Positions 18,941 through 55,216 of a stretch of 64,000 bases of DNA are shown here, in pieces. Position 1 is the stretch's first letter; each line of letters opens with the position of its first letter. The position numbers and the translations under genes are program-made. The DNA is from Zygnema cylindricum (taxonomy: Eukaryota > Streptophyta > Zygnematophyceae > Zygnematales > Zygnemataceae): contig JBBHKE010000793.1 in NCBI GenBank assembly GCA_037447655.1, positions 1 through 64,000 on the forward strand. The letters run 5' to 3'. Under the pieces are notes generated by a model. That model was not told the DNA's origin. It saw only the letters and a program-made list of their open reading frames with translations, and made no database searches.

Positions 18941-18945
18941 TTTTA

Positions 18946-20407: not shown

Positions 20408-20419
20408 ATTTCCCCCCTA

Positions 20420-25998: not shown

Positions 25999-26001
25999 GT
26001 A

Positions 26002-26281: not shown

Positions 26282-26289
26282 ATTTCCCC

Positions 26290-29431: not shown

Positions 29432-29840
29432 GGCGTTTGGAATCACGGGCTGCCAATAAAACCAGTTGTCGATCGAATTCCATGTTGTCATACTTGGGTT
29501 GGGAAGCATCAAAGAGGGGTGTAGAAACGGTTTCCTTCAATGATAAGGCCGAGAAAGTCTTATCCACTCCCAGCCAGAGTTACGCCGCCTGTAATAATCT
29601 ATGTTTGTATTCCTCTTCCCATCGCTTGGAAATGGGGAATTGCTAGATTTCTTTTGCAATATTTGTGGAACTGCCAAATAGTTCTACCGGAGATGCGATA
29701 GTATACACCGGGTAGCAACCAGACACCGAGAAATTTGTCTTCCCCCAGTTCCTTAAATCCAAAGGAACCACCACTTTAGTTGCTTCGGGATTTCTTGGTT
29801 CATGAACTGTGTATTGTTGTTTCCACACACTCAAGCTCCT

Positions 29841-30116
29841 ATTTAGCTAGGTCAAAGTGGCCATTCCCAACAAAATTTCAAATTGAGTCCCTTCCACCAC
29901 TAACAAGGGAAGCTCAATTTTCACCCGTTGGCCTCCGTCATAAAAAAAATCTATTTCCATGGCCTTGATAATCCCATGGACTAGTTGACTGCCGCTTCTT
30001 ACAGTGCTTAAGTAGATGTTGCTTGGGCAAATTTCGGGCCAGAGTTTTTTGGGAATTTTTTGCAAAACGGAGGCAGTGATGAGGTTAGGGAGCGCTTCGA
30101 TGTCAAGCATAGCGTC
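29841..30116 (-). pseudogene. G2 retropepsin (broken)
   Basis: Same as G1: DIEA in place of DTGA at 30093-30104, with a later EGTQFEILLGMATL strand. It lies between the gag linker and DNMT. Confidence 0.75.
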
Positions 30117-30723
30117 TTCGTATCCTCAGTACCCGTTGAGCTTAATGTTTATGGTTTTGTTAAATATAAGAGCCACTGATAAGGATTTGTATTCCCTATC
30201 CACTATAGGTGTCTTTGGATCTGTGGAAAAAATGACTACAGTTGGCGTAATGGTCTTGTCGACTCTTCTTTTCCGGAGTGGATCTCTTCTCCCAAGGTTT
30301 GAATGAGAATTTATTCGGGGAAGATGTGGGAGGAAGTTAGAGTCTTCACGTGTGTGAGGGCGAATGGCATGAGGTGGTGGACTACCATGACAGCTAGTTT
30401 GGAGGAAGGAACGCTAGCTTTTGGTGAAAATGGGGGTGAATTTGGTTCCTACGGATCCTGATATTGTACTTGTTTCTCCCCCTCGAAGCCGGAATTGGGG
30501 ATTGGGGGTGTTTGGGGAGTGTCATTATCCGGGCATTTTGCCATGCATATCTCAAACCAGTCATGATTGACCTTTTTTTCTTGTTACTGCGACTCCTTTT
30601 CCCGCTACTGTTTCTCGTTCTGGTAGTTATCCAAAGCGAGAGGCAATTTAGGTTTGTGAGGAAGAGATAGAGGGTGATTGGGTTTGAATCCGAGGCCGAT
30701 GTTGTTGTTCACCATCACTGCTC

Positions 30724-31422
30724 TTAGAGTAAATGACAAAGGACTTGTAGCTTTCCGGTTGTGATCCCTCTGACCCATTTTCTACCTGTCCTGTCTTTGC
30801 ATTGGGTGGAATTGCGTAGTTGGCGGCGGCTCTCTCTCACCCCAACATTCCAAGCTCTGGACAAGAAGGTTCGAGCATGGTGGGCATTTGGGGGTTCCAA
30901 ATCCCAGCCCAATAAATCACCATCATTAGCACCAGCTGTGCTTTGAAGTTTAAGCTCCGCGAGCTTTTGTAACAACTCCTCTTTTTGTTTCTCGAGTCGT
31001 TGTGCTGCTGTGAGGGGAGCAGGCCGTGAAAAAGATCCCACACGGAGGGCAGCCAAATCTATAGCCATTACGGCTAGTTGCTGACTCTACTGCTGGATTA
31101 TGAATTCCGGTGTAATTCTAGTTGTATCTCCCGATGCTCGCTCAGGTTCCTCCTGGGAAAGTGGAACCCGACGTCCCCAAGGATAGAGTAGTTGGAGTGG
31201 GAGAGGGTTAACAGCAATTTCTCCTTCTCCAGTGAATAGGGCGAACTGCATCATTTCTTTAGGCACCCCATTCTTTTGGAAACATTGCATTTCCTTATCC
31301 CCGTGGAAGCTGCAAGCCTCGCATTTTGTTCCTTCGGGGGTGTATTTACTGCCGATTTCAATTGAGATATGAGCGTCATCATACTTTGGAAGTTTTATTT
31401 GTCGCAGCTGGGAATGCGACAT
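30724..31422 (-). pseudogene. G2 gag-pol linker
   Basis: 30724-31068 has a heptad-like AAQRLEKQKEELLQKLAEL. 31087-31422 reads LPKYDDAHISIEIGSKYTPE and then a Cys/His cluster (CEACSFHGDKEMQC). The function of this part is unknown to me. Confidence 0.55.
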
Positions 31423-34400
31423 TTTGGCGGTTTCTGCTCGGGGAGTCGGATTGCAAGTTTCCTTGGTTACTGGCGTCTTCTTCCCCCCTCTTTCCCCTTT
31501 GAGCTTTTCTTTCTACTTTTGGGTCCTTTTTGCACTTTCTTTCTCCCATTCCATGAGTTTCAAGGCCAGCTCCGGTTTAAGTTTCCGTGTGCAGTGTTTT
31601 CACCCATGACCGGATTGTTGACAATTTAGGCAATTGTAAAGAAAAACTTTGTCGTCTGCTCCCATTTCTTGTTCTAACTCGTTGTTAGCTACTTGCTTCC
31701 CTTTGAGCTTCCGCAAAGCTTGATGTTCAGCCTTTTTTCTCCTCACCCAAGGAGGTCTCCCCGCCGAATCCTACAAAATTTGCGTCGGCCTTGCTGGTCA
31801 CGGCCTTCTCCCTTGCCTCACTATGGACAAAGTGATCGTACAACTTCATCTCCACCAGTGAAATGTCCTTGGATGAGGGATTAATGTCTTAAATTGTCTT
31901 TCCGGCAATCTAATTATCCAAAGCAGTCTACCCTGTTGGCCAAAAGGAATTATGGACGGCGATGAAATATTTGGTTGCCATTGTCGGAAGGTCCATAGAG
32001 GACAACTTTGCCTTATGACAAGGGCTCGAGAGACAATACAACAGGGTTTGCGTAGTCTCGTTCTTTAAACAGTGAAATTCCGTGAATTTTTGGATCAGAG
32101 ACTCGTTCCTCTCGGTGTAGAGGAGCCTCCAGATATTCAACAGAGTAGTACAAGGGTTGGGGTTGGCAACCCATGCGAATTGTAGCCGGGCCGCCTGAAT
32201 GGCTTGTAGCTGGTTAACATAGGCTATTCCTTGGGCTTGTAGTATCATGTCATCTGTGAAGGTAGCAGTCACAAGTGTTGCGCCCGCTGCAACGAAGTCA
32301 GCCTCTGCTTGTAAAACAGCAATGTCGAGAGCTAGATCGAGATCTTGATGCTGGGAGCCATCAAGAGTTGTTGTCGCTCTTTAAAATTAACCTACGCCTC
32401 TCCTAAAAGGTTGTTGACCATCATTGGGAAAAGGGTTGTCTCGAAGTCATCCATAATGGCGCCTCCCCTGTACTTGTTGATTTCAGACCGTGTGAAAGAT
32501 TTCAACAACAACTCGAAATCCGAAAATGCTATCCCCAAGCTATCTCCTGTAAAGTTTCGGATGTCCCCCATTTCTATTTCTTCCTCGCTAGAATTGGTGA
32601 AATGGGAGGAGGAAGGCCCTATGGGACTGACAAATTTGAGCCGGTGAGATGACTCATGTTTCCTCTTCCTTTGTACTAGAACAGTGTCCTCCTCTTGTAG
32701 AAGGAGCTGGTCTGATATATGTTGATCCCCCCCCAAAGAGGAAGTACAAGAGCGCCCGTAGATAAACCTGGAGGAAGGATATTCCCCACTACTCTATATC
32801 CAAGAGAGTATTATTTTTCCTGGAGAACTTGATCCACTGATGGGATGCGGAGGCGAGGTGGAGGTCCTTGGGGAAGGGTTGGTGGCGGAGAAGGGGATGA
32901 CTGGTGGCTTTGACGAGAAGGTGTCTTTCTCCTCAATGGTGTCTATCTCCTTTGTCACCTTCGAGAGGACTCTGTAGGAGGAGTTCCTCAACTGGAGGAT
33001 GGGGAACGCCAATAAGGAGGCGAGTATACATCTTGTTTGTAGAGTAAGAAATGCAGATCCGGTGACCCATAGACTACTGCAATGGGAGAAAAGGATGAAG
33101 AGGGAGAGGAGGCGTGAACGTCCTGGGGCTCTGTTGTAAGACCTGAAAGTTAGAAGTTGGAGGAGGAGGAGAAGATGGGAGATCTCGGGATATTCCGGGA
33201 GATGGTGAAGGGGGTGTAGACGGCCTCTATGGAATGTGAATCGTCTCGTCCGGTCGCAACTCCACCAAAGCCTCCACGGCGGAAGCAACCTCCTCGAGAC
33301 AAAGGTAGGTTCTTCCCGAGGAAGAGAAGCAAACTCATGAGGTAAATATGCACCCAAACCTTTCATGTTAGGTTCAATTTTTCCCCCCTTTTCTTGCTGA
33401 AGAGGAGGCTCTCGGCTAGTTTTCAGGGAAGGAACTTTTGGCGAGGGCTTGTAAGAGGAGAAGTCCCTTAAGCCGGCGCTTCAGGATGCGGCTCGGTCCT
33501 TGATGTAGAAAGAATTTGCCCGCTGAGAATCCCACTAGATCTACGCTTAGCTTCCCGGATGAGTTCCAAATCGTGTTCCCATAACTTTCGCCTTTCTACC
33601 CCTAAGGCTTCCTAATCAACCGTGACGGGTCCGGCCCCCGCTATAGCTTTGCCCTGAGATTTTAGAACTTCCACTAGTTCCTAGGCCTTTTCAATTACTT
33701 TGGTAAGATCCGCTATCTCCATCCCCGGATTTTTGGGTTCATTTGGTCTGATCCGCCACCCTCCCTCTAAGCCCGTACCCGCAACCTCTAGATCAGTTGG
33801 TCTGGATCGCCGGAGCCCATCAAAAGGGCGGTCACGAGTTGTTGTAGGAAAAGGTCTCTCGGTTGAGGTTGACACAAGAGTTGGGGACATCTCCTCTTTC
33901 GAAAGAGGTGCAAATCTCCCCTTGCTGTCCTTCTGGACAAACCTCTTTCCCCTCAAGGTATCTCGAGCTTCCCTCTCGCTACCCCTTTCTCCTCTACGAG
34001 GCCTCGAGGAGGTTTGCCTCCGGGAGGTTCTGCTGGCAGTTGTATCCAAAGAGGAAGATGGGGGAGGCCTAGAATAGGGAACTTTGTGTGACCTGTCGGG
34101 CAACGACAGTGAAGAGCTGCTCTGTGAAGAACTGCTCAAAATCTCCACCATCCCTCCCACGGGTCTAACTACCCTGACTCGATCTGTCCGAGCCACCGTT
34201 TGCAACAACTCTTTTTTTAACTTCAACTCATAGAGGTCGTGAAGGGCAAGGAGTTCCTTACGACCTGGGCGATAGGGATCCATCAAAACCGCGGGGTATA
34301 TCTTGATCTCGACCCGAGGAATCTTAGATCTGGTGTGGAGCCTGACCTTCGAAGGAGGACCCAAATGAGGCTCCCTATGTGACTGCCGCTTTTGCCAGGC

Positions 34401-34800
34401 CTTGTGACTGTCGCTTTTGCCAGGCCTTGGGAGTCACTCTGTTCCTTCCCTGGGCGTGAGCCCGGGCTTCTTTCCTTTCCTCAGCAAAGGTTCTAGCAGC
34501 CTCCACCAAGGAAGGGTAATGTTTGGGAGTTAAACAAGGAGGAGGTGGAGGAGAAGAAGCACCAGCGGGTTCCTATGTCGGAAAATCAACGGTAGACTCC
34601 AAAATCCTAAAAAACCCTAAAAAACAACTCCTTGGACCTCTTAGGCTCTTCCTCTTGTACAAGCCTCTCATGCCGACCTTCCTCTTCAGATACATTATCC
34701 AAAGTCTCTCCTCCCACCATGATGACAATGGTAAAAAGAGAGATGAATAATAAATGTAACTAGAGCTCACTTCGAAAAAGGGAGCTTCCAAAATTAAAGC
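31423..34800 (-). pseudogene. G2 gag (broken)
   Basis: From the N-terminus: YPSLVEAARTFAEERKEARA near 34460-34540; a Ser/Arg/Pro-rich region (33681-34364, KELLALHDLYELKLKKELLQ at its start); capsid-like SEINKYRGGAIMDDFETTLF in 32392-32736 and 31928-32272 (LLNIWRLLYTERNESLIQKF); and a CCHC knuckle CLNCQQSGHG*KHC at 31591-31632, with Trp replaced by TGA. Gag should build the particle. There are several frame changes. Confidence 0.75.
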
Positions 34801-34845
34801 TCCTATCCTCTCTATTTCGAGCAGACAGGGTTGCCTTTTCAGTAA

Positions 34846-36024
34846 TGTGCTTTCTATACGGGAAGTTTATTGCACTTGTTCCCTCAAAACCCACTTCTGT
34901 TTGCTCTGAAACGGTCACTCCAAAACAAAGAGAACTCTAGATGAAAACACAAATGCACTAAAATGAAGACAAAGGTCGATATATATATAAATAAATATGA
35001 TCGTCTTTCTAGATTTAAGAATATCACCTTGCTCAGAAACGAGAGTATAAGATAGAAATTGTGAAAATGTAGCAAAGCAAGCTTAACATACCCCAACAAT
35101 CAACGAAAAAAATTAGAAAAATGCTACCCCTCCTCCGAGAGTATCGTAAAAAGGTATAGTACTCTTGCAACCTTCCGTTTTCGCAACTCGGAAACGACCA
35201 TACTCTTTTCGGTTTGAAACAGGAAAAAGTCCAAAAATCACCCAAAAAGCAGATAGTGCCAACTACCCGCCCGTACTCTGATTCCCACACAAGAGAGATC
35301 AAAAACAAAAATGGTAATCGAGTCAAAAAAAACAAAAATTCTCCTAAAGAAGGTTTGTTGGATTTTATGAGGGTTTTCAGAGACCGTACTTAAAAGCAAC
35401 CTTTCTCCTTTGTCCCCAAATGCCTTATACATCAAAGTTTGTCAAATTGCAGGTCCAAAAGTCAAAGCTACGCTATTAACAAATGAGCAGCAAGCAAATG
35501 TAATCGAACTGGAAATAGACAAAACAATCCGTACTACACATGGGGGCAAAACGTTTGTCTCCGGATTGCGGCTAGATCCACGGTAGGAAGAAATTATTTT
35601 GTCCACTATTATAAAACAAAGTCCTGAAAAGGACACTAACTTGCCATACTTTGACCTACTGTAATTAATGGACCAAAAGTCAGTTAAGCCTGAGCTAAAT
35701 TCTTATTAACGGCTAACATCATAATCTAGATGCAAATCCGGAAAGTTACGTGGCAATCCACAATGTACCCCCCTCCGGGCATGGTGGAAAATTGTCCCAT
35801 GTAACGGAATTGCTATCTTCGAGACGGTAGAACTTTGTCGTCCGGCCTTCGTTAGGCGCGAAATAATGTGCGTTCGACTCAGTTTAGGAAATACAAGGAT
35901 CTCGTCATGCTTGGTGCCCTCGCTCCTCCGTACACTAAAGAGCGTAAAGTGTAAAAAAGGCCCGACAATCCTTGGTGATATAAAGGTGTGCCTTAAAAGT
36001 ACAAGAGCTTGACAACATCGAACA
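34846..36024 (-). repeat. Gypsy module B at G2 5' end
   Basis: It aligns along its length with B of G1 (18946-20127) and ends GAAAGCACA next to the gag leader. It begins exactly at the A/B boundary with no module A in front. Confidence 0.75.
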
Positions 36025-36097
36025 CATCGTATGGTGAACATATCATACGCATGATAGTAGATTGGCCTATTTAGTATGTACAGCTCATCTTATCGTG
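36025..36097. other. 73-bp spacer between head-to-head G2 and G3
   Basis: Contains ATCGTATGGTGAACATAT, shared in reverse with 18505-18525, and AGCTCATCTTAT, also found at 18613. Confidence 0.5.
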
Positions 36098-36876
36098 ATA
36101 AGTTAGTTAATCTGATCTGAACTCTCCGCCACGGATCTAGCCGGAGTTTGAATTATAACATTTTGCCTTGAGTGTGGTATGGCCTAATTTTTCCAATGTC
36201 AATTCGATATCATTTGCTCTTCGTTCATTGGCTACTTGCATTGGGTTGACCTTTTAGATCTAAACTGGACAAACTTTGTTGTATAAGGCTCTTCGGGCCG
36301 AAGGAGATAGGTTGCTGTTTTCAGTACTGTCTCTTAAAAGAAACCCTAGAAACTTCGAACAAACAATCTTTTGGAGAACTTTTATCTTATTTGTTGTGTC
36401 TCTATTGCCATCTTTAAGTTAGAATTGTCTCGTGTGGAAATCATATTTCGGTTGGGTAATTGGTATTATCTTTCTCTTGGGCGGTTTGAGTCTTTTTGAT
36501 GTTGGACCCGGGAAGAGTCTGATTGATTTTGTGTCGCCGAAGCCGAGGGGTGAGGGAGAATCTTACGGTTTTTGGTGCCATGTGGGAGAAATTTCGTCTC
36601 TTATTTGTGTCATCGTTTATCTTCGGGGTAGGTTGAGCTCGCTTCACCATTATTCTTCATTCTATCTTTATTTCTCTTTTCTAAGGCAGGGTGATATTGT
36701 TAAATATGTAATGACATATTCTTTTTTATAAATATTTATGCGTGGAAGTTCCTTTGTGAACTTGTTTGTGGTTCTTTTGGCTTCGACAGCAATCGCACGA
36801 GGGTGGGCTGCTTTACCTATGGGATAAGAGAGGGATTATCGTGTAGCCATTGGCAGACTTCTAGCAAACTAGCACA
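36098..36876 (+). repeat. Gypsy module B, 5' truncated, at G3 5' end
   Basis: It matches 51583-52355 (for example GCCACGGATCTAGCCGGAGT) and ends CTAGCACA before the leader. Module A and the first part of B are missing. Confidence 0.75.
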
Positions 36877-39400
36877 GTACTAAAAACAATAATTGTCCCA
36901 TCAGATTAGTGGGGATAGTAGCTTCATCTTTGGTACCTAATCCTCCTCTACAAGAGTCAGATTATATTCTTGGTTAGGTTGTGTCTCCCTCTTCTCTCAC
37001 CTAATGGGAGGAGGAGAAGCCCAGGATAGGGGTATATAGATTTTGTATCACAAGAAAAGGACAAACAAAAGAGAGTTGCACAAGAGGAAGAGTCCCAAAT
37101 TCTCGAGGAATCAGCTCCGGCTTCATTCCTCTTTGATTCTCCATTCAAAGAAACAGCTGGGGATCCCAAACATCCACCTCCTCCTAATTTGACCTCTGAG
37201 CAATTTCCTTCTTTGGCCGAGGCCGCCAAGGCCCAAGCCGAGGAGAGAAAGAGAACATCCTTTACCTCTCGGAGAAAGGGGCTAGCTCATAAAGAACCCG
37301 CCTCTAGTCCCCTTTTGAAGGCTGGATTTTATACATGGTAAAAGGTACCTAGGAACGAAATCCACATAGATCATGAACTTTGAAGAGATCCTCATCAGCC
37401 TTATCGAATGGAGCTCCTCGCCTTTCACGATATGCATGAGATAAAGGTGAAGAGGGAGTTGGTTTAGAGGGTAGCCCGCAAAGATTGAGCTTGCGCAGTC
37501 CATTCTGTGGGAGGGGTTATGGAGATTTTGAGCAGCTCCTCAGAAAGCAGTTATTGTCAGTCTGTACCGGACGACCCTGGAGGGTGCCAGCTTCACTTAC
37601 CGAGACCACTCAATCCCAATATTCGGCTACCAGTAGTTATCACCGAGGCCTAACAACCTCTCGGGTATGTGCTGAAGAAGGCACCAGCACGAGGAGTTAT
37701 CAAAAGCCTTGGAAGGGGAAAAGATTTGACCAGCAAGACATGAAAGGAAGGTTTGCGCTGAAGGTTAAGGTGGAAACGTCTCCTCCTCTTGCAACAACCG
37801 AACCTAGAGGGTCTTTTGAAGCAGCACGTACCATTCAACCTTTTGGGGGATTGTGGCTAACAAGACCTACCAACCCAGAGGTCTCGGAGGTGGATCTGGA
37901 GGATTTGACAGGGGTATTGAGTATTGCCCAAGAATTGATGAAAAATTTGAAATCCGAAGGCGGAGCATCAACAAGGGCTGAGCCTGTCACAATAGATTGG
38001 GAGGCATTAGAGGAAGAAAGGAAAAAATTATGTGAGCATGAATTACGTCTGATACGGGATGCTCGGCTTAGGTCGAAAGGGCTTTTTAGGGAGCAGGTTT
38101 CACCCTCGCCAATTATATCTCCTTTTTTTGGAGAGCCAACGCGGGAAACTGCTAGTTCCCTTGCAACTCATCCCAAAGAGAAGTTATCGAAAACACAACA
38201 GGAACCTCCTCTTTGGTGGGAAATGAGGATATTACAGGACCTAATAGAAAGGGTTTGGGTGCAAATAACCTTTCTGAATTTGCTCTTCTATCTCGGAAGC
38301 TTCCTACGTTTGTCTCGGTGGAGATCTCCTCTGCCGTTGAAGGTTACGTGGAATTGAGACCGGACAAAAGGGTCCACATCCCCCTCAGACAGTCCACTCC
38401 TCCTTCATCACTTCCCATACCATCTCCTAATCTTACCTCTACTGCTACTCCACTTCCTTTCTCTCAGTCCCAAGGACCTACAGTCTACCCGAAAAACACT
38501 CCCGCTTCACGGTCTGAGTTGGTGGCTGCACACCCTACTACATCATCTCTTCTTGAAACTACTATCTTTCTTATTCTCCCCCTCACCGACGTTCCCCATC
38601 TTCTAGCTTTTAACATCTACCTTCATTTCGATCGGGACGCACCGCTTGAGGGCATACACTGTATCCTCGGACGGGGCCTCCTCCTTCTCCTTTATATTCC
38701 TTGTCTCGAGGTACTCCGCCGAGCACTCCCCACCTCCAAATTCCACCTATCTAGACAAGTCGTCGGGCTCGGACACCGTTTGAACAAAGGGGATCAAGTA
38801 TCATCCCAGCTGGATACACCAAACCTCTTGCCATATTTTGAGCAGCAGAAACTTCCTTTATGGGGGGGGGGGTCACCTCTTCTAGGGCCGCACCTTCTAC
38901 CAGAGAAGGAGGCGGTTCCAGTCTCAAGGATGAGGACAAAGGGGTAATCCAACCTGCTTAATTTGTCAGTCCCATCAGGCCGTCTTTTCCACACCTCACG
39001 AATCTTGCGGATGAGGATAATGAAATAGGAGATGTTAGGATATTCATAAAGAGAGTTCAAGGATTGCCTTTTCGGATTTTGAATTATTGTGGAAATCCCT
39101 CAACCAATATGAGATTAACAAGTACCGAGGAGGAGCCATTCCTGATGATTTCGAAACGTCCTTTTTCCCTATGATGGTTAAATACCTTTCTGGTGGTGTT
39201 TTGGCACATTACAAAGATCGACAACCTATCCTAATGGCTCTTAGCATCAAAATCTCGGACCGAAATCTCGATGCGGCAATTTTGCAAGTGAAAGCCGACT
39301 TGGCTGCAACTGCGGCTGCCTCGGTCAATTCCACCTTCACGGATGACATGAAGCAACGACCTCTATTGCGAATAGGGATAACAAGGCTTTATCGGTAGCC
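36877..39400 (+). pseudogene. G3 gag (broken, nucleocapsid deleted)
   Basis: FPSLAEAAKAQAEERKRTSF at about 37205-37265 and RMELLAFHDMHEIKVKRELV near 37400-37465 match the G2 gag N-terminus. A 290-codon frame (37485-38357) holds GKRFDQQDMKGRFA and an acidic helix (WEALEEERKKLCEHELRLI). Capsid is NKYRGGAIPDDFETSFFPMM in 39087-39398. After TFTDDM the sequence jumps to the protease, so the rest of capsid and the zinc knuckle are gone. Confidence 0.75.
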
Positions 39401-39439
39401 CTCATCCTCAATCAAATCGAAAACTTCAAACACAACAGA

Positions 39440-40100
39440 TACTGAGGATATCAAAGAGGCCAAGGTCGATACTGGGGCACTCTCTAAGTTATTACCACTT
39501 CAGCTCGGCAACAGATGCCAAAGGAACTCCGACTTGATATTTGACCAAGCGACATTTGTTTGAGCACGGTTAGCAGCGGAAGCCAACCAGTCCACGGGAT
39601 TATTAAAGGCATGACAATCGAATTCTCGATGACGTTGGCCAACAGGGTTGGATTTAACTCTTCTTCCTAGTGGTGGAATGTAAGCAGTTTGAAATTTTGT
39701 TGGGAATGGCTAGGTGGACAAGGCTGAATATGGGGCTGAGCATCAAGAAAGAATAGTTTACTATCCAAGATCCAGAGGATCTTGAGGGGACCAAGGTGGT
39801 GGTTCCTTTAACATTGTGGAATAGGGGAAGGACTACTGTTCCGGTGTCTGGGTGCTACCTTGTGTATGCCACAACCACTCTGACAATCTCTTTGCTAGTT
39901 CAACCGATATAGCCGAGGCAATTTAGCAATTCCTTATTTCTAAGCGGTGGGAACAAGAATACCAAGAAATATTATAACAAGTAGTTAAATTTCGGCGGGA
40001 GGTAAACCAAATTTTTGCACCAATTATACACGATGGCATAACGTACTTTCGATAAGAACATTCGGATGTCCCCATCGATACTAAGAGATTCAACCGACAA
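39440..40100 (+). pseudogene. G3 retropepsin (broken)
   Basis: The catalytic DTGA is intact at 39468-39479 (VDTGALSKLLPL), followed after a shift by FEILLGMARWT. Stops follow. It precedes the DNMT domain. Confidence 0.75.
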
Positions 40101-40136
40101 ATGGTGTTAATGATTGTTCCCTAAACAGGACTCTGA

Positions 40137-41090
40137 ATATTAACTCTATTTTCTAGAATTTGTTATAATCTGGAAGTTGTTGTAAAGGCAGGATACCAAG
40201 TGGAGGACTATACAACAGTAGAAATAGCACAGGTAGCTTGGGTTGTTATTGAGCACCGTCTGCAACCACTTCACCAGCTGTATTGGCAGCAACTACCCGT
40301 GTCCTCCGTTTCCAACTCTCACAAGATACTCCCCCTGAATGTGGACAACATTATGACCTCTCATTTAGAAAGTCTAGGGAGGGTGGATCTTCTGATGGCT
40401 GGCTGTCATTGTGAAGGATACACCTTAGCGAAGAAGGAAAAACACACCAAGATAGCTCGAGTAGAACTTTCTTTCTGATGATCCGATAGATCTTAGAAAC
40501 ACGACAGAAACACAAAACGCCAATAGGGTACGTAATCGAAAATGTTAACCTGATATATGAAAAAAGAAAACATGTTGCCAACAGCTACAATCAGATCATG
40601 CAGATTTTAGGGGCACCATTAGTTTTCTAAGAAGCCCATATGGGATCCCGCTCACATAAGGTTAGAGCTTATAAAACCAACTTGGTCCCACTCTCAATCT
40701 TAAAGCAAATTTTGGCCGAACAAGTTCCAAACCCCAAATTTACAATCCAACAGATTTTAGGTAAGAGGCGAATGGCCACACTTGTGACCACAACTGACAA
40801 GTCCGCGTTCTTTCGTTGCAATACACAAGGCCCCAAGACGAGCACTTCTAACCCTAATATCTTTCCCACATAGCCACGCCTACAGGAAAGGAGCCCCTGG
40901 AATGATATATGATAGCATAACTAAATCATGGACAACGCCAAACATCGAAGTACGAGGAGAAGCTATGGGATTCCAACCTGCAACAACAGCTGCATTAGGT
41001 ATTTCAAACATCCGAAGGTACAACTTAATAGGACAAAGCATGGATATGAATTCTATCTCCTGGGTCTTAAAGCATTCTCTAGCCTTTTCT
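40137..41090 (+). pseudogene. G3 DNA cytosine-5 methyltransferase domain (broken)
   Basis: About 315 codons between PR and RT. Motif I LFSRICYNLEVVVKAGY is at 40146-40196 (expected LFSGIG). Motif II VEI is at 40218-40226. LGRVDLLMAG leads to motif IV, read as HC at 40407-40412 (Pro lost, Cys kept). Motif VI YVIENV has ENV at 40538-40546. Motif VIII GSRSHKVRAY is at 40643-40672. The target-recognition stretch (PKFTIQQILGKRRMATLVTT) is followed by motifs IX/X AMGFQPATTAALGIS and LIGQSMDMNSISWVLKH, ending near 41085. The conventional motif order fits a DNMT3-like enzyme. The presence of the same domain in the diverged G1/G2 shows it belongs to the family. Stops at about 40479 and 40627 inactivate this copy. 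Confidence 0.87.
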
Positions 41091-41690
41091 AGTATTTTTT
41101 CCCTACATGCTAAGACTAGGTACCTTTAAGCTTCAAAATTGCTAGCGATGCAAGCCACATTAAAGCTTGAGGCGGGTAGAGAGGCAAGGAGAAAGTATTC
41201 AAAGTTTTTACCTTCTAGCATCATATCGGATCCAAGGATTTCCTCAGTAAGGGGGAGCGAAGGCTCAAAAACGGATAGCTTAGCGGAAGTTTTCAGCAAC
41301 AGCGTTCTAATAAGAGGAGGAGAAGTAGATCAACCGGTAGGGTTGGAATTTGACATCTCCCGATGGGGCAGACCAGCGCAAACATGGGTAGCGGTGGAAC
41401 CCCGGAAGATGGATGGGACCTTGGGGGAGCAGCTAGACCTTTAACAGAAGGCGCGACTCTCTAAACTGTTATAAGAGAACAAGTAGATGTTCTTATGGTT
41501 AGATATCGATGTTGGCATTTACAAAGGGACCCCTTTTCAGATCGATTTGATAGATGAGACGGTAACCGTTTGGTAAGTAGTACCCCCTCAGCTTCAAAGA
41601 AAAGGAATTCATCACGACAAAGATACTAACCCTGGTTGATACAGGATAAGTGTAGGAAAGTACACGACTCCATGGGTTTGCATCCCTAAC
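41091..41690 (+). pseudogene. G3 DNMT-RT linker
   Basis: A frame at 41139-41444 reads MQATLKLEAGREARRKYSKF and resembles G2 sequence on the other side of its DNMT. No domain recognised. Confidence 0.45.
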
Positions 41691-42330
41691 AGTTCTCCCA
41701 TCAAAGAAGGACTTGTTTAGAAAAATTGTAGATTTTCGGATGTGTGGGGACTACCGGATGCTTAACACGGCAACTTTATCCGACGGATACCCGATGCCAA
41801 CACGGAAGATATATTTAACTCCCTAGTTGGTGCCACAATTTATTCCACGCTAGATATGAAGAATTAGTTCCACCAAATCGAGATGGATCCGAAGCACCAA
41901 GAGAGGACAACTTTTTGGGCGGGGTCCAAGTTGTATTAATGACTCTACATGCCCTTCGGACTAAATAACGCACCAGCCAAATTCCAACGAACAATGGATG
42001 AGGCGCTTCGAGGAATCGACTATGCCCGTTGCTATATCGACGATGTGATTATCTTCTATAAGACATTCGAGGAACACTTGGAGCACATACAGATTGACCT
42101 CCGCGCCCTTCAAGCAAGGGACTTGAATTTTCACCCAGGTAAGGGAATTTTTGGAATTTTTTAAATTATTTACCTGAGCCATGAGGTTACCCCCGCGATA
42201 GTGGGTCCTTATATGGTTAAGTTAAAAGCCTTTGATGGCTTGCCTCCTCTGCAAGACGTCTTTGCACTTCGCACATTCTTAGGCCTAGCCAACTACAATA
42301 GGAGATTTATCCCCGGATTCAGCAGTCATG
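41690..42330 (+). pseudogene. G3 reverse transcriptase (broken)
   Basis: GATIYSTLDMKN, MPFGLNNAPAKFQRTMDEAL and YIDDVIIF (YIDD at 42033-42044) are diagnostic of Ty3/gypsy RT, which copies the element RNA. Stops precede MPFG and follow GIFGIF. Confidence 0.88.
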
Positions 42331-42870
42331 CACAACCTTTGAACTAGTTATTGGGAAAGGACTAATAATGAAAATAGGCGGAGGAACAACAGATTTTATT
42401 CCATTTTTTTAAGGATTCCCTTAAGAATGACCCGTTCTCCGAATGCCTGATCATTAGAGGCCTTTTCTCCTTTACACTGATTGGAGTAGGTTTGGATTGG
42501 GAGCGGTTTTGGCTCAATAAGACGATGCTTGGGCAAAGTATGTGATGGCTTATGCTAGCCAAAGCGATAAAAGAGTAGAAAGGAATTACAATAGTTATCA
42601 TGGGGAGTTACTTGCCACAAACTGGGTGATTCAACATTTTAGGACCATATATTTATACAGTTTATTTCATGTAGATTATGGATCACAAACCGCTCAAGTG
42701 GATCATGGAGAACAGTAAGTTAACTGGCAAGCTGGCCATATGGGTGTTAATATTGCAGGAATATGATTTCAACATAATTCACCCGGCAGGTAAAAAATTT
42801 TCGAACGCCGACGGACTTAGCAAAAATCCGAATCCTTCCACCCAAAAATCTAACGCGGTTCGTCACGATG
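42331..42870 (+). pseudogene. G3 RNase H and connection (broken)
   Basis: DHKPLKWIMENSKLTGKLAI and WVLILQEYDFNIIHPAGKKF, then NADGLSKNP, form the typical C-terminal part of gypsy RNase H (42678-42850). Upstream pieces are in other frames. Confidence 0.82.
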
Positions 42871-43179
42871 AAGATTCCAAAATTAGTGTGGGGCTTATTC
42901 GCGCCTCCTCGGCCTTTATTTTCTCCCTTGATCTAGGGGGAGCTTACAACATTTTTTGCAGATGTGGAGGGGTAGGCTTCGTTAGGGGATGGACGTAAGG
43001 ATATTTAGAACAATCCCGATTCCCTCCAATCCATCCAGCAAGGTTCTTCCTTTCCCTATTTGTCTAGAGCTCATTTATCCTGTGTACAGACTTCAATGGT
43101 GGCATACAAATGGGAAAAGGGCATTCTAATCCGGAAGTGGGCCGATGGAACGACGAAAGTTGTTACTCCCCCATCCAAC

Positions 43180-44002
43180 AGATAAACTCTCATTTTTCGC
43201 CTCCACGAGCAATGTGGTCATTTTGGGCAAAAATGGACTACTTCCCTTGTTACAGGATCGTACTGGTGGCATGAGTTGAGGACCCAAGTTAATCGGATTG
43301 TGCAGACGTGTCTTTCTTTGGACCAAGTGAAAGCGACTTTCGACAAAAGAGGAGGGAGAGAACTTGATTCTCTTCCTATCATAGGAATGTTTTACTTGTG
43401 GTCTTTGGATTTGTTGGGCCCTCTCCCCACTAGCAAACGGGGGAGCCGCTTCGTTTTGGTGATGATAGAACATTTTTCCAAATTGATAGAATTGGTTGAG
43501 GTGTCGAGGAAGTAGTCCAAGGCAATTGCAGACGCATTATTGTAGAGAGTGTTGTTTGAGTTCGAGGCACCAACAGAGGTTCTAACCGACCAAGGCTCCG
43601 ATCGCGGGAGAATTCTCCAACTTGTTAAAATTGTGCTTTATCAAACACCGGTTGACTAGCCGAGACCACCCTTAAGCCGACGATTTTGTAGAAAGGTGCG
43701 TACAAACAGTGAAGCGGTCACTGCATAAATAAGTTGTTGAAGAATATTTGGGGGAGTGGGATAGACGGGTTCCTTCGATTCCCATGGGGTACAGATTCAG
43801 TCGGCAAGCCTCCCTCCACTCTTATAACCCTTATTTCGTACAACATCCCATTCTCCCCGGCGCTGCCTCGGCCCAAGCAGTGGTCCTTTCGGAGATGGAT
43901 AACAAGGGGACACGTGGGAAACTGATTGCCGACCGAGCCAAGGTATTTCACCTAGAAAGGCCTCTCGCCATGGGGAACTTGTAGGCAACTCAGCATCGAT
44001 AT
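43180..44002 (+). pseudogene. G3 integrase, N-terminal part
   Basis: HEQCGHFGQKWTTSLVTGSY is the zinc region. The core in 43276-43515 has LWSLDLLGPLPTSKRGSRFV; later VLTDQGSD and DDFVERCVQTVKRSL give the second D and the E. LGEWDRRVPSIPMGYRFSRQ follows. C2 interrupts the frame at 44003. Confidence 0.85.
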
Positions 44003-44214
44003 TGTAGAAACTAATGGTTTTAAAGTATTTTCTAGGTCTGAAAAGAAATAAAGAAGCCGAGGCAGTCTATCTCTAACTTCTCTCTCCAACTCTCAAACTT
44101 GTTGCAGTCACTGAGAAATTGAAGAGGAAGCTAGAGCCATGGCTACCTAGGCTATCCTGAGGTTTACGGGAAATTATATTAGTTAGGGTTTATTTATTTA
44201 AAAGGTATGTGCCG

Positions 44215-44290
44215 GCGACAGGAATTGATCCTTGTTCCTACCGGCCGAGAGACAGGAAATAGCCGGTAGCCTTAGCCGTTAAGTCTAGCA
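44215..44290 (-). other. tRNA-like module in C2 5' LTR (antisense)
   Basis: Minus strand: TAACGGCTAAGGC (A-box-like, 44269-44281), an anticodon-arm-like TACCGGC...GCCGGTA stem, and GGATCAATTCC (B-box-like, 44221-44231). Confidence 0.5.
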
Positions 44291-44808
44291 GTAGTGTTAC
44301 GAAGTATATAGTTTGATAATTATTTAATTATGTATACGTACGATAATTCATTTAACTATAATTGATTACGTGATACATAGATCCGGTACGGACTACGGTA
44401 CGGATTACGAATCAATACCGCGCATTTGTTTCGTAAGTGAAACAAATACCGCGCATGCATTTATTACGGCTACAATTAAATTACATTCTAATCGGACGGC
44501 CGCAATTAACGCCGAGATTGCGGAGGAAGATTTCGGCGGTTTGTGGCCATCGCCACATCGGATGACGCGTGGCGAAATTACATTGGATCGTGGAATCTCC
44601 GGAGATTATGGCACCGAATCCGGATATGACATGTGTCGACATTTAGGGCATGTCGTACAATGTCCGTACCTAAAGTACACCGGCAGCTGTACTTTTGAGT
44701 ACAGAACTCAATTCTGATTGGTTCCGTACATCAGTAGATAGAGTCTGTGAGAGAGAAAGGACTTAGAAAATTTTAGAAGATAGGACCCTCTCTCCCAGAG
44801 AGCTTCTG

Positions 44809-44817
44809 TATAAAAGG
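44809..44817 (+). promoter_or_regulatory. TATA box of C2 5' LTR
   Basis: TATAAAAGG. The identical site in the 3' LTR is at 50199-50207. It sets the presumed Pol II start of the genomic RNA. Confidence 0.75.
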
Positions 44818-45039
44818 TCAACTTTGACCCTCCATAACTTACTGCTCAGGGGAGCAAATTCAGAGATTCTTTTTGCTATCGACTCAGGGGAGTCTTGCCT
44901 TCACAAGGGTGCAGGTGGTCAGGGTTTTTGTCTGCCAGAGTGGCAGTTATTTTTGCTGAAACACAAAGGGGTCAGGATTATCCTAGAGGCTTCTTTGAAG
45001 CTGTCTACTCTGAGGACTTATGGAGGTCTCAGAGTTGCA

Positions 45040-45054
45040 GGTTATGGGCCCACC
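45040..45054 (+). other. C2 primer binding site containing the gag ATG
   Basis: GGTTATGGGCCCACC abuts the LTR directly and is complementary to the anticodon arm of initiator tRNA-Met. Its ATG (45044-45046) is in frame with gag. Confidence 0.82.
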
Positions 45055-46140
45055 CTCTAGGGTACCAATCTTTAATGGAACCGACTTCATTTACTGGGAA
45101 AGTATGATGATAAGAGCTGTATGCGAAAAAAGGTTTTGGGGGATAGTGAGTGGACGGTTGGGGCGTCCATCAAGTCTTGGAATTCCTCCAGGGTTTGGAG
45201 GAACCAGATTCACCAGGAAAGAGGATCCATCTTCAACGGAGGAAACAAAAGAAGGAGAGGTGGTGGACAAAGTAAAGGAGAAGGAGACGACCACACCAAT
45301 AGCAACTGGTTCGACATTCATGTCGCCTATTCCGAGGAATGAGGAGAATGATACTGAAACCTAGGACTTCAACAATATGGTGGCAAAGCACTTCATCCTA
45401 CGCCATCTCACTCAAGGACTTGCATGTCCTCATTTGCAGGTAGAAAGGGCATCCGATCTTTGAATGGCTCTCATAAAGATGTACCGAAGTGGTACGATTC
45501 AGCAACAACAGTTGGCTGATCAGAAAGTTAAAGAGTATGTATACAAAGGGGGAAACATGTTGGATTTTTGCAATGAGCTTGCCACACTCTTCATGGAGCT
45601 AGAGAGTGCGGGAAAAGATTTTAGTGAAAAAGAAAAGGTTAATTGTTTACTGATGAAGTTACCTGATGATTTCGTGAACATAGTTTACCGTGTGTAGGAC
45701 TTGCTTGACTCAAGGTGGATATGGAACTCAGTGGTAGGGATGATTCTCGTTCAAGAGAATACAATTGAGATCCGAAGGGGAGGAAAGAGTGGCCAAGCCT
45801 TGGCAACAGCGACTGATTGGAGGAACAAGGATTCCCGAAAACCGGTCGCAAACTATGGGGGTAGGGAGCAGAAAAAACAGTCCGACGAGTTCAAACCAAG
45901 GGCTCCCAAAGGTTTATGTCATTTTTGTAAGAAACCGGGGCACTATATGGCAGAGTGCACTAAGCTAACCGAGCTGAGGTTAAAGGAGGAGCAGACCGGT
46001 GGTACCCCGAGAGGAAAGAAAAAGGTCATTGTCACACAGGTACTTAAGGCGGAATCCGAGGACAAGGACGATGAGCTCCTTTTGGATGAGGAGTTGGAGG
46101 CGAAAAATGATGTCGAAATTCCACGAAGGCAGAAATGTGC
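45044..46140 (+). pseudogene. C2 gag, three stops
   Basis: One reading frame from the PBS ATG: MGPPSRVPIFNGTDFIYWE, capsid helices (VKEYVYKGGNMLDFCNELAT; LLMKLPDDFVNIVYRV) and the CCHC knuckle CHFCKKPGHYMAEC at 45917-45958. Stops are TAG 45362-45364 (Trp in relatives), TGA 45461-45463 (Trp) and TAG 45695-45697 (Gln). All three are explained by single C-to-T or G-to-A changes. Gag forms the particle. Confidence 0.9.
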
Positions 46141-49100
46141 TTACGGTGGATTGAAAGGTGAAGCAAGCTCGATTGTAGATTCAGGTGCCTCCATGCACAT
46201 GTGTAAGGATAGACACCTGTTCACTAAGATAAGAAAGATTCCCACCGTAGAGATAGAGTACGGGGATGGGAGGATAGTCACCACTACTCTTGTAGGATCG
46301 GTAGTTTTGAAAGTGTTAGTAGAAGGAAAGACATCCATATTAACATTCTCCGATGTATTGTTTATTCCGGAGCTGAACAAAAATCTTATCTCTACATCAG
46401 TATTAGATGATAAGGGTTTTTTCACTAGCACTAGGGAAGGAGTCTTTACTGCTAGTTATGAGGAGGATGTCCATTTCATTGCTGAGAAAGGTAGCCATGG
46501 GATGTATAGGCTGATCTTAAGTAATGAAAAGAAGAAACTTTGTTATGCTGTTGTTCATGATATTATGATGTGGCATAAGAGGATTGGGCATGTGAATCTA
46601 GATAAGTTAAAAGAGATGAAAAAGATGGGAGTGGCGGAAGGGATTCAGTTCAGTGAAAGTGATGATATAAGTGATTGTAGTGGATGTGCTCAAGGTAAAG
46701 CACACAGATTACCCTTTCCTAAATCAGCCACCTATAAGGGAGAAAAAATTATAGATCTAGTACACACAGATATTTGGGGACCAGCTAGAGTGCCCTCACC
46801 GGGGGGGAAGAGATTTATGATGACTATAATTGATGATTGGTCTCGGTATTCCCGGGTATATTTTTTGAAAAACAAGTCTGAAGCTGAGGATTGTTTTAGA
46901 CAATATAAAGCATGGAGCGAAAAACTCCATGAAACTCCAATCAAGAGAGTAAGGAGTGACAATGGTGGAGAGTATACTTCTAACCAATTTGAGGATTTTC
47001 TAAGGGTAGATGGGGTTCAACACCAAAAGACAGTCCCAGAAAATCCGGAACAGAATGGGGTAGCTGAAAGGTTAAATAGAACACTAAGTGATAGTGCTAG
47101 AAGTATGTTGTCAGATAAAAAGATAGGAAAAATGGTTTTGGGCAAAAGCAATGAACTGTGCTAATTACCTCAAGAATAGAGTTCTTACTTCAGCTATAAA
47201 AGATCAAACACCTTATGAGAGATGGACAGGCCGGAAACAAGACATATCTCACTTAAAGGTTTTCGGCAGTCAAGTGTTCAGTCTAGATACTGACCGGTCC
47301 AATTGGAAGCTAGATCCTAAAGGAAAACCGGGATACTTATTAGGATATGATGAAGATGTTAAAGGATATAGAGTTTATGATCTAAAAAGGGAAGATATAA
47401 TCTTAGTAAAGCATCTAGTAGTTATGGATGAAGGAAAGTCTGTGGATCCCTTCAAATATACGAAGTCAGTAAAAATCAGATTTGAGTCAGAAAATTCCGA
47501 TGACTTTGAGCTTCCTAACTATCCAGGTTTTAGAGAAGATGACATTCTTGCAGGAACAAATCAGACCGAAAAGGACTCGGCTGTGGAAACTCCAGTGACA
47601 ACTCTACTCGAAGCGGAAGACGTGGTGGAAATTGATTCAGAATCAAGGGATAGGGGAGAAGCCGAGTTTGTTCGAAAGAATCCACGAGAACCATCTATTT
47701 CGGCCTCAGATTTTGAGGGGGGGAGGAGAAGTAGCAAAAGACTGCAAGAAAAACAGGTTAATAACAAGGTAACTAAACTATCTCATCAAGATGAACCTCA
47801 AACTTATGGAGAGGCGATGACTTGTCCAGAAAGAAACCGGTGGAAGACAGCCATCAATGAGGAGATGGCTTCAATCATGGCAGCCGATACTTGGGAGCTG
47901 GTGAACTGTCCACCTAACCGAAAACCAATCGGTTGTAAGTGGGTTTTCAAATTAAAACTGAACCCAGATAACATAATCGAGCGCTACAAGGCCAGATTAG
48001 TGGCAAAGGGATTTACACAAAAGGAAGGAATTGACTACGAGGAAACCTTTGCCCCGGTGGTCAGATTTCCCTCCGTCCGCATACTTCTCAGTTTAGCAGC
48101 GGCGGAAGACATGGAAGTGCATCAGATGGACATCAAAACAGCCTTTTTGCATGGAGAATAAAAAGAGGAGATCTTCATGCGACAACCCGAAGGTTTTGTG
48201 GAGGAAGGAGAGGAGAGTAAGGTATGCCGGCTGATTAAATCTCTTTATGGTTTGAAACAGGCGCCTCGACAATGGAATAAGAAGCTTAACGAGTTTCTTA
48301 CCGGTCTAGGATATATTCGGATCAGCTCAGATCACTCAATCTATGTTTTCGAAGATGAGGAGGGTTTGATATTTATTGCAATTTATGTTGATGATTTGCT
48401 TGTTTTAAGTAAATCAATGGAAAAAATTAATAAACTGAAAACCGATCTTAAGGGGAGATTTGAAATGAAGGATATGGGGGAAGCAAAATATATTTTGGGA
48501 ATTCAAGTAGAGAGAGACCGAAAAAGAAAAATTATAAGATTGACTCAAAAGGAAGCAATAGGGAACATGCTTGAAAAATTTCAAATGGATAAAGCTAATA
48601 GTTGTACAACTCCAATGGAGTTGAAGAGGGGAAGTGAGGGGAGTGAGGAAGAAGGAGTCATAGTCTTAGACGAAGAATTATCTCCTGAAGAACAGAAGTT
48701 CATGCAGACCATTCCTTACAGACAAGTAGTGGGAAGTCTAATTTATTTTATGAATTGTACCCGGCCGGATTTAGCAGCAGCTGTAGGAGTGCTGAGTAGA
48801 AGTCTAAATGCTCCCACTAAGAAGGATTGGGAGGCAGCTAAGAGAGTCCTTAGATATTTAATAGGAACTAGGGATCTATGGTTGCATTTGGGTGGGGAGA
48901 ATACTGACATCACTACTTGGAGTGATGCCAGTTATGGTGATGCTCCGATGAGGAGATGCACTTCTGGATATGTATTATATGTGGGTGATGGGGCTTGCTG
49001 TTGGAGTAGTAAACAGCAAAAGGTTATTGCTCAGTCCACCATGGAGGCTGAGTATATGGCCTCTTGCTCTGCTGTAAAAGAATTAATGTGGGTCAAGTCT

Positions 49101-49379
49101 TTGCTTGGTGAGCTTGGCCACCTTAAGAGTGGTGTGCAGAAAATATTTTGTGATAATCAGGCAGCAATCACTATTTCTGCCAATCCTAAACATCATTTTA
49201 AAGCCAAACACATGGACATCAGACTCAGCTTTGTTAGAGAAAAAGTAGAAAACAAGATAATTAGTTTAGAGTACAGACCAGATAGTGAGATGGTAGCGGA
49301 TATGATGACCAAACCTGTGCCTTCCCCTAAGCTAATTTTTTGCAGGGAGAAGTGTGGTCTGAAATTAAAGATTGACTAG
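46141..49379 (+). pseudogene. C2 pol (PR-IN-RT-RNase H), one frameshift and one stop
   Basis: Continues in the gag frame. Retropepsin DSGAS is at 46178-46192. GAG-pre-integrase MMWHKRIGHVN leads to integrase with D 46769-46771, D 46958-46960 and E 47066-47068 (35 residues between the last two). A 1-base insertion near 47135 (GATGGTTTTGGG region) shifts the frame. RT starts WKTAINEEMASIMAADTWEL and is cut by TAA 48159-48161 after FLHGE, with YVDD at 48384-48395. RNase H has WSDASYGDAP, WSSKQQKVIAQSTMEAEYMA and CDNQAAI. It ends TAG at 49377-49379. All catalytic residues are present, so only a few mutations separate it from an active form. Confidence 0.94.
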
Positions 49380-49392
49380 AAAAAAAGGGGAG
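49380..49392 (+). other. C2 polypurine tract
   Basis: AAAAAAAGGGGAG between the pol stop and the 3' LTR. Confidence 0.88.
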
Positions 49393-50429
49393 TGTAGAAA
49401 CTAATGGTTTTAAAGTATTTTCTAGGTCTGAAAAGAAATAAAGAAGCCGAGGCAGTCTATCTCTAACTTCTCTCTCCAACTCTCAAACTTGTTGCAGTCA
49501 CTGAGAAATTGAAGAGGAAGCTAAAGCCATGGCTACCTAGGCTATCCTGAGGTTTACGTGAAATTATATTAGTTAGGGTTTATTTATTTAAAAGGTATGT
49601 GCCGGCGACAGGAATTGATCCTTGTACCTACCGGCCGACAGACAGGAAATAGTCGGTAGCCTTAGCCGTTAAGTCTAGCAGTACTGTTACGAAGTATATA
49701 GTTTGATAATTATTTAATTATGTATACGTACGATAATTCATTTAACTATAATTGATTACGTGATACATAGATCCGGTACGGATTACGGTACGGATTACGA
49801 ATCAATACCGCGCATTTGTTTCGTAAGTGAAACAAATACCGCGCATGTATTTATTACGGCTACAATTAAATTACATTCTAATCGGACGGCCGCAATTAGC
49901 GCCGAGATCGCGGAGGAAGATTTCGGCGGTTTGTGGCCATCGCCACATCGGATGACGCGTGGCGAAATTACATTGGATCGTGGAATCTCCGGAGATTATG
50001 GCACCGAATCCGGATATGACATGTGTCGACATTTAGGGCATGTCGTACAATGTCCGTACCTAAAGTACACCGACAGCTGTACTTTTGAGTACGGAACTCA
50101 ATTCTGATTGGTTCGGTACATCAGTAGATAGAGTCTGTGAGAGAGATAGGACTTAGAAAATTTTAGAAGATAGGATCCTCTCTCCCAGAGAGCTTCTGTA
50201 TAAAAGGTCAACTTTGACCCTCCATAACTTACTGCTCAGGGGAGCAAATTCAGAGATTATTTTTGCTATCGACTCAAGGGAGTCTTGCCTTCACACGGGT
50301 GCAGGTGGTCAGGGTTTTTGTCTGCCAAGGTGGCAATTATTTTTGCTGAAACACAAAGGGGTCAGGATTATCCTAGAGGCTTTTTGGAAGCTGTCTACTC
50401 TGAGGACTTATGGAGGTCTCAGAGTTGCA
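49393..50429 (+). repeat. C2 3' LTR (1037 bp)
   Basis: Same length as the 5' LTR, about 23 substitutions. tRNA-like module at 49605-49680 (B-box-like 49611-49621). TATAAAAGG at 50199-50207. Confidence 0.95.
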
Positions 50430-50434
50430 GATAT

Positions 50435-50908
50435 CAAGTATAGTATTTGCAACGCTAGTGCTGGAATTCTGTCTCACGGCAACGGCAATTTATGCCCGGG
50501 GATTTCGTGTACTGGACGCAACAATAAAAGAAAACTCTAGATATTTTCTAAAGACGAGTGATTTTAAAGGCGGTAGAGGTTTCTAATAAGGATGTTCTGA
50601 CGATGGAGGGAAAAGATGGTTGCAAAATCAAGGAGAATCAAATCAATATGGCCCGCTATCACCTTTTAAGATTGAAAGATGAGACGTTCCACCTGACATA
50701 TTTTGCCGACCCCCCTTTTTGTTCCTCCTGCTGCACTTTGTCATCCCAGCCGGGTCGTGTTTTGGTTTGCGATCGATGCCACTAGTATTGGCATCAGTCT
50801 TGCGATACCTCCTCCTAAGACTCTCGTCCTCAATTCTCTACCCCATGGTTTTGCGCGAACGACAAGTTGGGCGGGTAACTCATTTATTTTCTTAGTTCGA
50901 TGACTAAG
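50435..50908 (+). pseudogene. G3 integrase, C-terminal part
   Basis: It resumes after the C2 target duplication: PGDFVYW, then VILKAVEVSNKDVLTMEGKD and LLRLKDETFHLTYFADP (50558-50785), equivalent to 26415-26687 of G2. Confidence 0.8.
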
Positions 50909-50920
50909 AGGGGGGGAAAT

Positions 50921-51197
50921 TAGGATATTAGCCCACACCTTTTCTCCCCACCTCATGGGAATAGGGGGGGAATAAAGGGGGGGGGGTATCTTCTTTTTCT
51001 TCATTTGCCCTGCATTCATTCATCCGGCATGTCTCCTCCTTCCCTAAGTTTGCATCCATCCTTATGAAGGGATATCAGCATAAGGGGGCATTACCATTTT
51101 TCAAGGAAGCATCCGCATCTGGGAAACTCGCAAGTCTCTTTTGGACAACTTTGTGGACCATCGCCACTCTTTTTTTACTAATTAAGCACGCTCTACA
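50921..51197 (+). repeat. Gypsy module A, G3 3' LTR start
   Basis: TAGGATATT...CTCTACA directly follows the PPT. At 277 bp it has the same boundaries as the other A copies. Confidence 0.78.
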
Positions 51198-52355: not shown

Positions 52356-52362
52356 TGAAAAT

Positions 52363-53639: not shown

Positions 53640-53644
53640 CTCCC

Positions 53645-55190: not shown

Positions 55191-55216
55191 CCTTTTTGGA
55201 GCTGAAAAAGCCTCTT

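Follow-up and report, generated by a model that had tools for sequence, protein, structure and literature searches.

The closest described relative of the elements analysed here is KnitGypsy-Dnmt3 of Klebsormidium nitens, reported by de Mendoza et al. in 2018, in which a DNMT3-type domain lies within the Pol frame of a Gypsy element (PMC5890265; here and below, published work is cited from the accessible part of each source). KnitGypsy-Dnmt3 has DIRS-like A-coding-B-A-B repeats and expanded, intronless copies, with a Ka/Ks below 0.2 in the methyltransferase, and was interpreted as having been acquired within the K. nitens lineage. Its domain showed no activity in yeast, in a test that the authors call inconclusive. 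The same paper describes retroelements with a cytosine methyltransferase in Symbiodinium, namely SymbioDIRS-Dnmt3 and SymbioLINE-Dnmt. SymbioDIRS-Dnmt3 is alike in repeat order and in having a DNMT3-type domain, which methylated CG when tested in yeast; however, the Symbiodinium elements belong to other retroelement classes, being either DIRS elements with a tyrosine recombinase or LINEs. Further, anti-viral roles have been proposed in a 2019 opinion article, which names DNA-methylase-coding Ty3/Gypsy and DIRS elements from green algae among others (PMC6338049), and a 2025 survey mentions in passing that DNMT3 occurs in streptophyte and dinoflagellate retrotransposons, described as LTR Copia and DIRS elements (PMC12344493). 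The accessible parts of PMC11244446 and PMC6947507 contain nothing on such elements.

We analysed a 64,000-nucleotide stretch of Zygnema cylindricum DNA (hereafter, the window), much of which consists of retroelements. In the assembly, no RuBisCO large-chain match was found, and an HSP110-like protein is 81% identical to a metagenome protein and 64-76% identical to the named proteins among the 120 matches listed (8000 candidates scored), all of these being land-plant proteins, which makes a streptophyte likely. The initial annotation had pointed to earlier reports of retrotransposon-encoded methyltransferases and left open whether this family was among them; the window elements belong to the KnitGypsy-Dnmt3 kind, and a gypsy element with a methyltransferase was already published in 2018 (PMC5890265). 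Common to both are the DNMT3-type domain in a Ty3/gypsy Pol, the A-coding-B-A-B repeats, purifying selection, and expanded intronless copies. To this, our analyses add how widely the family is distributed and how old it is likely to be, a motif IV variant with ECQ in place of PCQ, and an end structure together with the insertion route that it suggests. In contrast to KnitGypsy-Dnmt3, the present family resides in another host and comprises two divergent subfamilies, one of them ECQ, and its relatives span streptophytes and chlorophytes rather than a single lineage of acquisition. Moreover, it has a PHD finger, target duplications, TG..CA ends, a palindromic junction, and a self-complementary primer site, none of which was found in the accessible portion of the main text of PMC5890265.

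The plus-strand element of the window (G3) carries the C5-methyltransferase domain where the initial annotation had placed it, with the Ty3/gypsy protease and the reverse transcriptase (RT) on either side (Table 1). Although the domain is fragmented by stops and frame changes, its motifs LFSRIC, VEI, YVIENV, and GSRSHKVRAY and its C-terminal tail read as annotated, as does the motif IV remnant ending in Cys, where PCQ is worn to HCE; the Cys and the ENV are kept. Up to position 43999, the domain order in G3 is protease, DNMT, RT, RNase H, and integrase, followed by a younger copia element (LTR pair 97.8% identical, K2P 0.023) and then by the PHD finger and the 3' repeats. In the family, the pol frame runs from protease through the DNMT3-like methyltransferase, RT, RNase H, and DDE integrase to the PHD finger; the window copies are old and broken.

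Table 1. Features of the methyltransferase-bearing elements and of an inserted element in the window (A1, B1, A2, and B2, terminal repeats)
Feature	Position	Strand	Evidence or remark
G1/G2 whole element, with internal duplication	18661..36014	-	ACAT at 18657-18660 and 36015-36018 (on the plus strand)
G1/G2 A1 repeat	34845..36014	-	87% identical to A2, K2P 0.141
G1 DNMT domain and preceding linker	22588..23776	-	tblastn E 4e-121
G2 DNMT domain and preceding linker	28454..29642	-	letter-for-letter identical to G1
Duplicated block	21049..25359	-	100% identical to 26915-31225
G1 B1 (20128-20411), A2 (18945-20125), and B2 (18661-18944)	18661..20411	-	joined GACA-GG-TGTC
G3 A1 repeat (5'), partial	36096..36874	+	~386 bp of 5' part missing; 85.5% identical to 51586-52355 over 768 sites
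G3 gag region remnants	38225..39353	+	tblastn with L035 gag-side ORF
G3 aspartic protease remnant	39350..39879	+	tblastn E 4e-59
G3 DNMT3-like C5-methyltransferase domain and preceding linker, broken	39927..41117	+	tblastn E 8e-85 (query, DNMT region of the open copy L024), 43% identity
G3 RT remnant (YIDD)	41538..42362	+	tblastn E 1e-112
G3 RNase H remnant	42330..42884	+	tblastn E 9e-42
G3 DDE integrase remnant	43123..43999	+	tblastn E 5e-120
Ty1/copia element, later insertion into G3	44003..50430	+	LTRs 44003-45040 and 49393-50430; Pfam domains
G3 PHD finger remnant, 3' of integrase	50624..50875	+	tblastn E 4e-27 with L033 PHD segment
G3 short hairpin and G-run directly before B1 (polypurine-tract position)	50890..50916	+	7-bp stem
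G3 B1 repeat	50917..51197	+	85% identical to B2
G3 A2 repeat	51200..52355	+	joined to B1 as TACA-AC-TGTG
G3 B2 repeat	52359..52641	+	ends GACA

Two further domains, G1 and G2, had been annotated as separate, diverged copies with PC and ENV intact. Both lie on the minus strand, at 23565-22588 and 29431-28454 (59% identity to the L024 DNMT query in tblastn), and PC (as PCH) and ENV are indeed kept, with six stops in frame across 23565-22588. Their standing as two independent copies did not hold: G1 and G2 are 100% identical across 4,311 bp with abrupt edges, despite many inactivating changes, and a single outer repeat set and a single 4-bp duplication enclose both. We therefore read them as one element with a very recent internal duplication, or as an assembly duplicate. 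The 3' half of the RT is missing from this element, and RNase H gave no match there in tblastn. G1/G2 and G3 stand head to head at window positions 36015-36095, where the 5' part of the G3 A1 repeat is missing.

Four open relatives match the PF00145 profile (E 4e-12 to 7e-14), which bears out the identity of the domain. By both sequence and fold, its nearest solved structures are DNMT3A/B, and its motif order is that of DNMT3, not rearranged as in DRM. Foldseek returned DNMT3A at 2.2e-18 and a phage C5-methylase, the best among viral models, at 4.5e-17; these values are similar, and thus the fold alone leaves the source of the domain unfixed. The RT matched Ty3 best (E 1e-78), and the order PR-RT-RNaseH-IN was found. 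The same LTR at both ends, as in Ty3/gypsy, was not, the 5' end carrying A alone and the 3' end B.A.B.

Across the 352.8 Mb of genome searched, PF00145 gave at least 123 matches (123 of 782 candidates scored). A PCQ-domain query gave at least 120 matches at 61-100% identity (119 of 1864 candidates scored) and an ECQ-domain query at least 125 at 66-100% identity (124 of 1847 scored), a few of these being paired fragments of a single copy or copies that recur identically on a second contig. Among the matches listed for the two queries, no shared place was seen by eye. Two divergent subfamilies carry the DNMT domain, some copies in long open frames. The longest open frame comprises 2395 residues, carries ECQ, and belongs to a copy with identical A repeats. 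Among 17 open-domain copies, dN/dS in the domain was 0.08-0.41, with many pairs above 0.2 (31 of 136 pairs, with dS 0.05-1.5), which points to purifying selection in a sample that, consisting of open copies only, is biased toward low values. A PHD finger follows the integrase in L031 (7200-8219), in L033 (6654-8528), and in G3, as well as in relatives of a second architecture (see below), and is a possible chromatin reader for target choice. Neither RIP-like nor strong CpG decay was seen in the window copies G1 and G3 (ts/tv 1.1-1.8), where 13/65, 6/27, 20/78, and 5/22 transitions fell in CpG context.

The end structure was read from younger copies. In the well-preserved copy on contig C1344, an A1 repeat of 931 bp precedes the coding region, which is followed by B1 (242 bp), the dinucleotide GC, A2 (100% identical to A1), and B2 (99.6% identity). 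The copy on C1915 is arranged in the same way, with 99.5% identity. These insertions are flanked by TTGG/TTGG and CCCT/CCCT, respectively, and, together with G1/G2, all three insertions readable at both ends carry 4-bp target duplications. A full repeat set was found in these two of the five contigs with flanks examined, whereas C1407 has only the B pair, and C544 and C82 have no clean repeat set. The split direct repeats, A-coding-B-A-B, are common to the two young copies and both window elements. The elements begin with TGTC and end with GACA, and the internal B1|A2 joint, GACA-GC-TGTC, forms a palindrome. The divergence of the A and B pairs is nearly equal within G3 (0.162 and 0.167) and within G1 (0.141 and 0.149), which indicates that both pairs were probably identical at insertion.

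Two features adjoin the repeats. First, a short inverted repeat and a G-run directly precede B1 in all four elements read (50890-50916, 20412-20437, L044, and L049). The stems of 9, 7, 6, and 7 bp in C1344, C1915, G1, and G3 were matched by 0, 26, 24, and 4 of 1000 shuffles, respectively, and their arms (CCAGCTCCT, CCAGCTC, TTAGTC, and TCTTAGT, with their complements) differ between the window and the young copies. Second, a stretch at the A1 edge is exactly complementary to a site inside A, over 18 nt in C1344 and 21 nt in C1915, against shuffle maxima of 10 and 12 (100 shuffles each). G1 and G3, with scores of 9 and 11, do not exceed a shuffle maximum of 12, which is expected of decayed copies and gives no support either. 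A tRNA primer site was rejected, as in none of the four elements read does the sequence following A1 start with TGG. Tf1/sushi-type gypsy elements prime themselves, through a primer site after the 5' repeat that is complementary to a site inside the repeat. Self-priming has been described (PMC5006619). In comparison with the Tf1/sushi type, the matches of 18-21 nt found here lie 457 and 901 bases into A.

The B|A joint is also widespread in the genome: the pattern of the ECQ subfamily, drawn from that subfamily itself, occurs at 527 places with up to three mismatches, compared with 7 for a reversed-pattern control, and these places represent joints, not complete elements with A1 and B2. Among 100 listed joints, at least 23 are found downstream of a scored DNMT, no more than 10 kb away and in the same orientation, and none in the opposite orientation was seen by eye within that distance. 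Our literature search, which covered few subscription journals, found no paper in which these elements are said to have target duplications, to prime themselves, or to form a circle-type joint, and none with the RNaseH-DNMT-integrase order considered below; it likewise returned no paper on split LTRs and no mention of the ECQ variant, which does not prove their absence from print.

Under the usual rules of reverse transcription, plus-strand priming before B1 and priming after A1 together would make B+A the working LTR. The explanation that we favor overall, and consider fairly probable, is a self-primed element with a B+A LTR that would insert from a two-LTR circle and methylate its own cDNA, with both route and role read from sequence. 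A transcript starting inside A would fold back and prime reverse transcription just after A1, as in Tf1-like self-priming, and the plus strand would be primed at the hairpin and G-run before B1. The integrase would cut one LTR of the two-LTR circle at its internal palindromic B|A junction, opening the circle and yielding the inserted A-coding-B.A-B order. The methyltransferase, either released from or within the polyprotein, would methylate the newly made cDNA, with CG as its most likely target, either ahead of insertion or in the course of it; the methylated cDNA might then pass as host chromatin or be quietly silenced, and the PHD finger on the integrase might steer insertion to certain histone marks. 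Several observations weigh against this explanation: G1 and G3 show neither strong CpG decay nor a self-complement above shuffles, three of the five contigs examined gave an incomplete repeat picture, the K. nitens domain was inactive in the yeast test that its authors call inconclusive, several relatives have Glu for Pro in motif IV, and the similar Foldseek value of the phage C5-methylase leaves the source of the domain unfixed. More tentatively, we suggest as a possible wider account an LTR lineage that green plants would have carried since around the time of the streptophyte-chlorophyte split or earlier, self-priming and inserting from two-LTR circles, whose integrase sites would lie inside U3 (the GACAGCTGTC palindromic junction), whose copies would be circularly permuted, and whose DNMT3-like domain would methylate the circle or cDNA before insertion. 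Retroviral integrases have been reported to cut a palindromic two-LTR joint (PMC1905944, PMC1180852). If true, the circle reading would provide a natural example of a circle-junction integration route long set aside for retroviruses, and the junction arrangement makes this specific insertion route testable.

DIRS/PAT elements have split direct repeats in the order A1-coding-B1A2B2, with an internal circle junction. The elements described here share the split direct repeats, and the A-B-A-B order could also arise with no opening of a circle by integrase, either through a bridging step of the DIRS kind or through template jumping on linear cDNA. That DIRS/PAT elements, which proceed by other steps, typically show this arrangement lends the possibility some substance, although it is not the one that we would expect. 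DIRS/PAT elements use a tyrosine recombinase, whereas a DDE integrase, TG..CA ends, and 4-bp duplications in all three readable insertions are found here. In the 2395-residue frame, Pfam identified an rve integrase, and no tyrosine recombinase matched at E 0.01 in the scanned pieces, which covered all but ~120 bases. Further, the primer site and the purine tract lie where an ordinary B+A LTR would have them, in favor of integrase-mediated opening of a two-LTR circle.

The methyltransferase lies at the same pol position in both subfamilies and was thus captured before these split, as the initial annotation had argued. A search in which scoring was confined to the DNMT portion of a 1137-residue piece yielded 27 relative proteins with two architectures, labeled from their domain order (by eye for partial proteins): protease-DNMT-RT (architecture A) and RT-RNaseH-DNMT-integrase-(PHD) (architecture B). 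An RT tree with 15 rows (15 of 18 hits being long enough) separates A (10) from B (5) at 100/99, and a DNMT tree with 20 rows, hand-picked to match the RT tree where possible, separates A (13) from B (7), also at 100/99. Among these 27 proteins and the best 120 of 281 in a profile search, the organism-named members, as placed by two DNMT trees, are Klebsormidium (3), Closterium (5), and Mesostigma (1, by its label) in the A half, and Haematococcus (1) and Scenedesmus (2, short fragments) in the B half; in the 20-row DNMT tree, the A half includes the K. nitens protein P0006. The order inside the A half is weak: the RT tree joins our PCQ sequences to Closterium (89/89), one DNMT tree is unresolved, and another puts our PCQ sequences outside (88/77), with a DNMT3A segment as its only outgroup, bacterial-like rows having been dropped by a coverage filter.

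The simplest reading of these trees is that one capture preceded the split of the two element lineages and that the domain later moved within pol; horizontal transfer would be an alternative source of the distribution. A further possibility, which we regard as rather unlikely, is that the methyltransferase entered the PR-DNMT-RT and RNaseH-DNMT-IN lines through two separate captures from related hosts. The two different places in pol would fit this, as would the profile scores, which descend from 457 to 93 bits within the family and to 83 for the next protein with no clean gap (low family scores being those of short pieces). The trees hold no host DNMT3 genes except the one DNMT3A segment, and the nearest kinship of groups A and B is thus unsupported. 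However, the RT and DNMT trees share the A|B split at 100/99, a W-P/E-C-Q motif IV occurs in both groups, and a C-terminal PHD finger in many members, all of which speaks for a single capture. With streptophyte and chlorophyte hosts, two domain orders, and matching RT and DNMT splits, what appeared to be a local capture may be an old, long-kept partnership.

In motif IV, PCQ was read at 19 and ECQ at 5 of the 24 Z. cylindricum loci readable in open frame (30 examined); these loci are the top PF00145 scorers, some near-identical, so that the counts are not frequencies, and the reading pattern required the Cys, so that they cannot test its conservation. ECQ also occurs in Closterium, Mesostigma, and further relatives. 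Among architecture B methyltransferases, P0008, P0012, P0016, and P0190 have PCE or SCE instead of PCQ. Since the 2395-residue open frame carries ECQ, this variant is not simply decay, although some relatives with Glu for Pro may be weak or inactive enzymes. It is conceivable, but in our view unlikely, that the domain, at least in the Glu-for-Pro subfamily, no longer methylates and is kept for DNA or RNA binding, as an aid in packaging or strand transfer. Such a role would suit the recurrent motif IV variants and the inactivity of the K. nitens domain in yeast (PMC5890265). Against it, an alignment of five sequences, two of them ECQ, shows no change in the catalytic Cys or in Glu-Asn of motif VI; among 20 aligned relatives, the Cys does not vary, nor does the Glu corresponding to position 151 of P0149 (taken as motif VI); 19 of the 24 loci read PCQ; and the ECQ copy with the longest open frame has identical A repeats. 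The recurrent Glu-for-Pro change beside the catalytic Cys offers a natural series on whether catalysis is needed. Under the favored reading, in which the element would methylate its own cDNA, a transposon that carries the silencing enzyme of its host is relevant to the question of why selfish DNA should mark itself.

Lastly, the chance landing of an unrelated host methyltransferase gene or pseudogene beside a retroelement, which the initial annotation had named as a refuting case, is rejected as extremely improbable, as the domain lies in-frame inside the pol of open copies, recurs in many copies, and is found likewise in other green lineages.

Two other features were observed in the window. 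A tandem repeat of ~80-bp units, 83-86% alike, occupies 8174-8767 and overlaps a 167-residue stop-to-stop frame. A further element, probably on the minus strand, spans 52681-58863; its end repeats are 84% alike, and it is copia-like by its match to 47889-49100.
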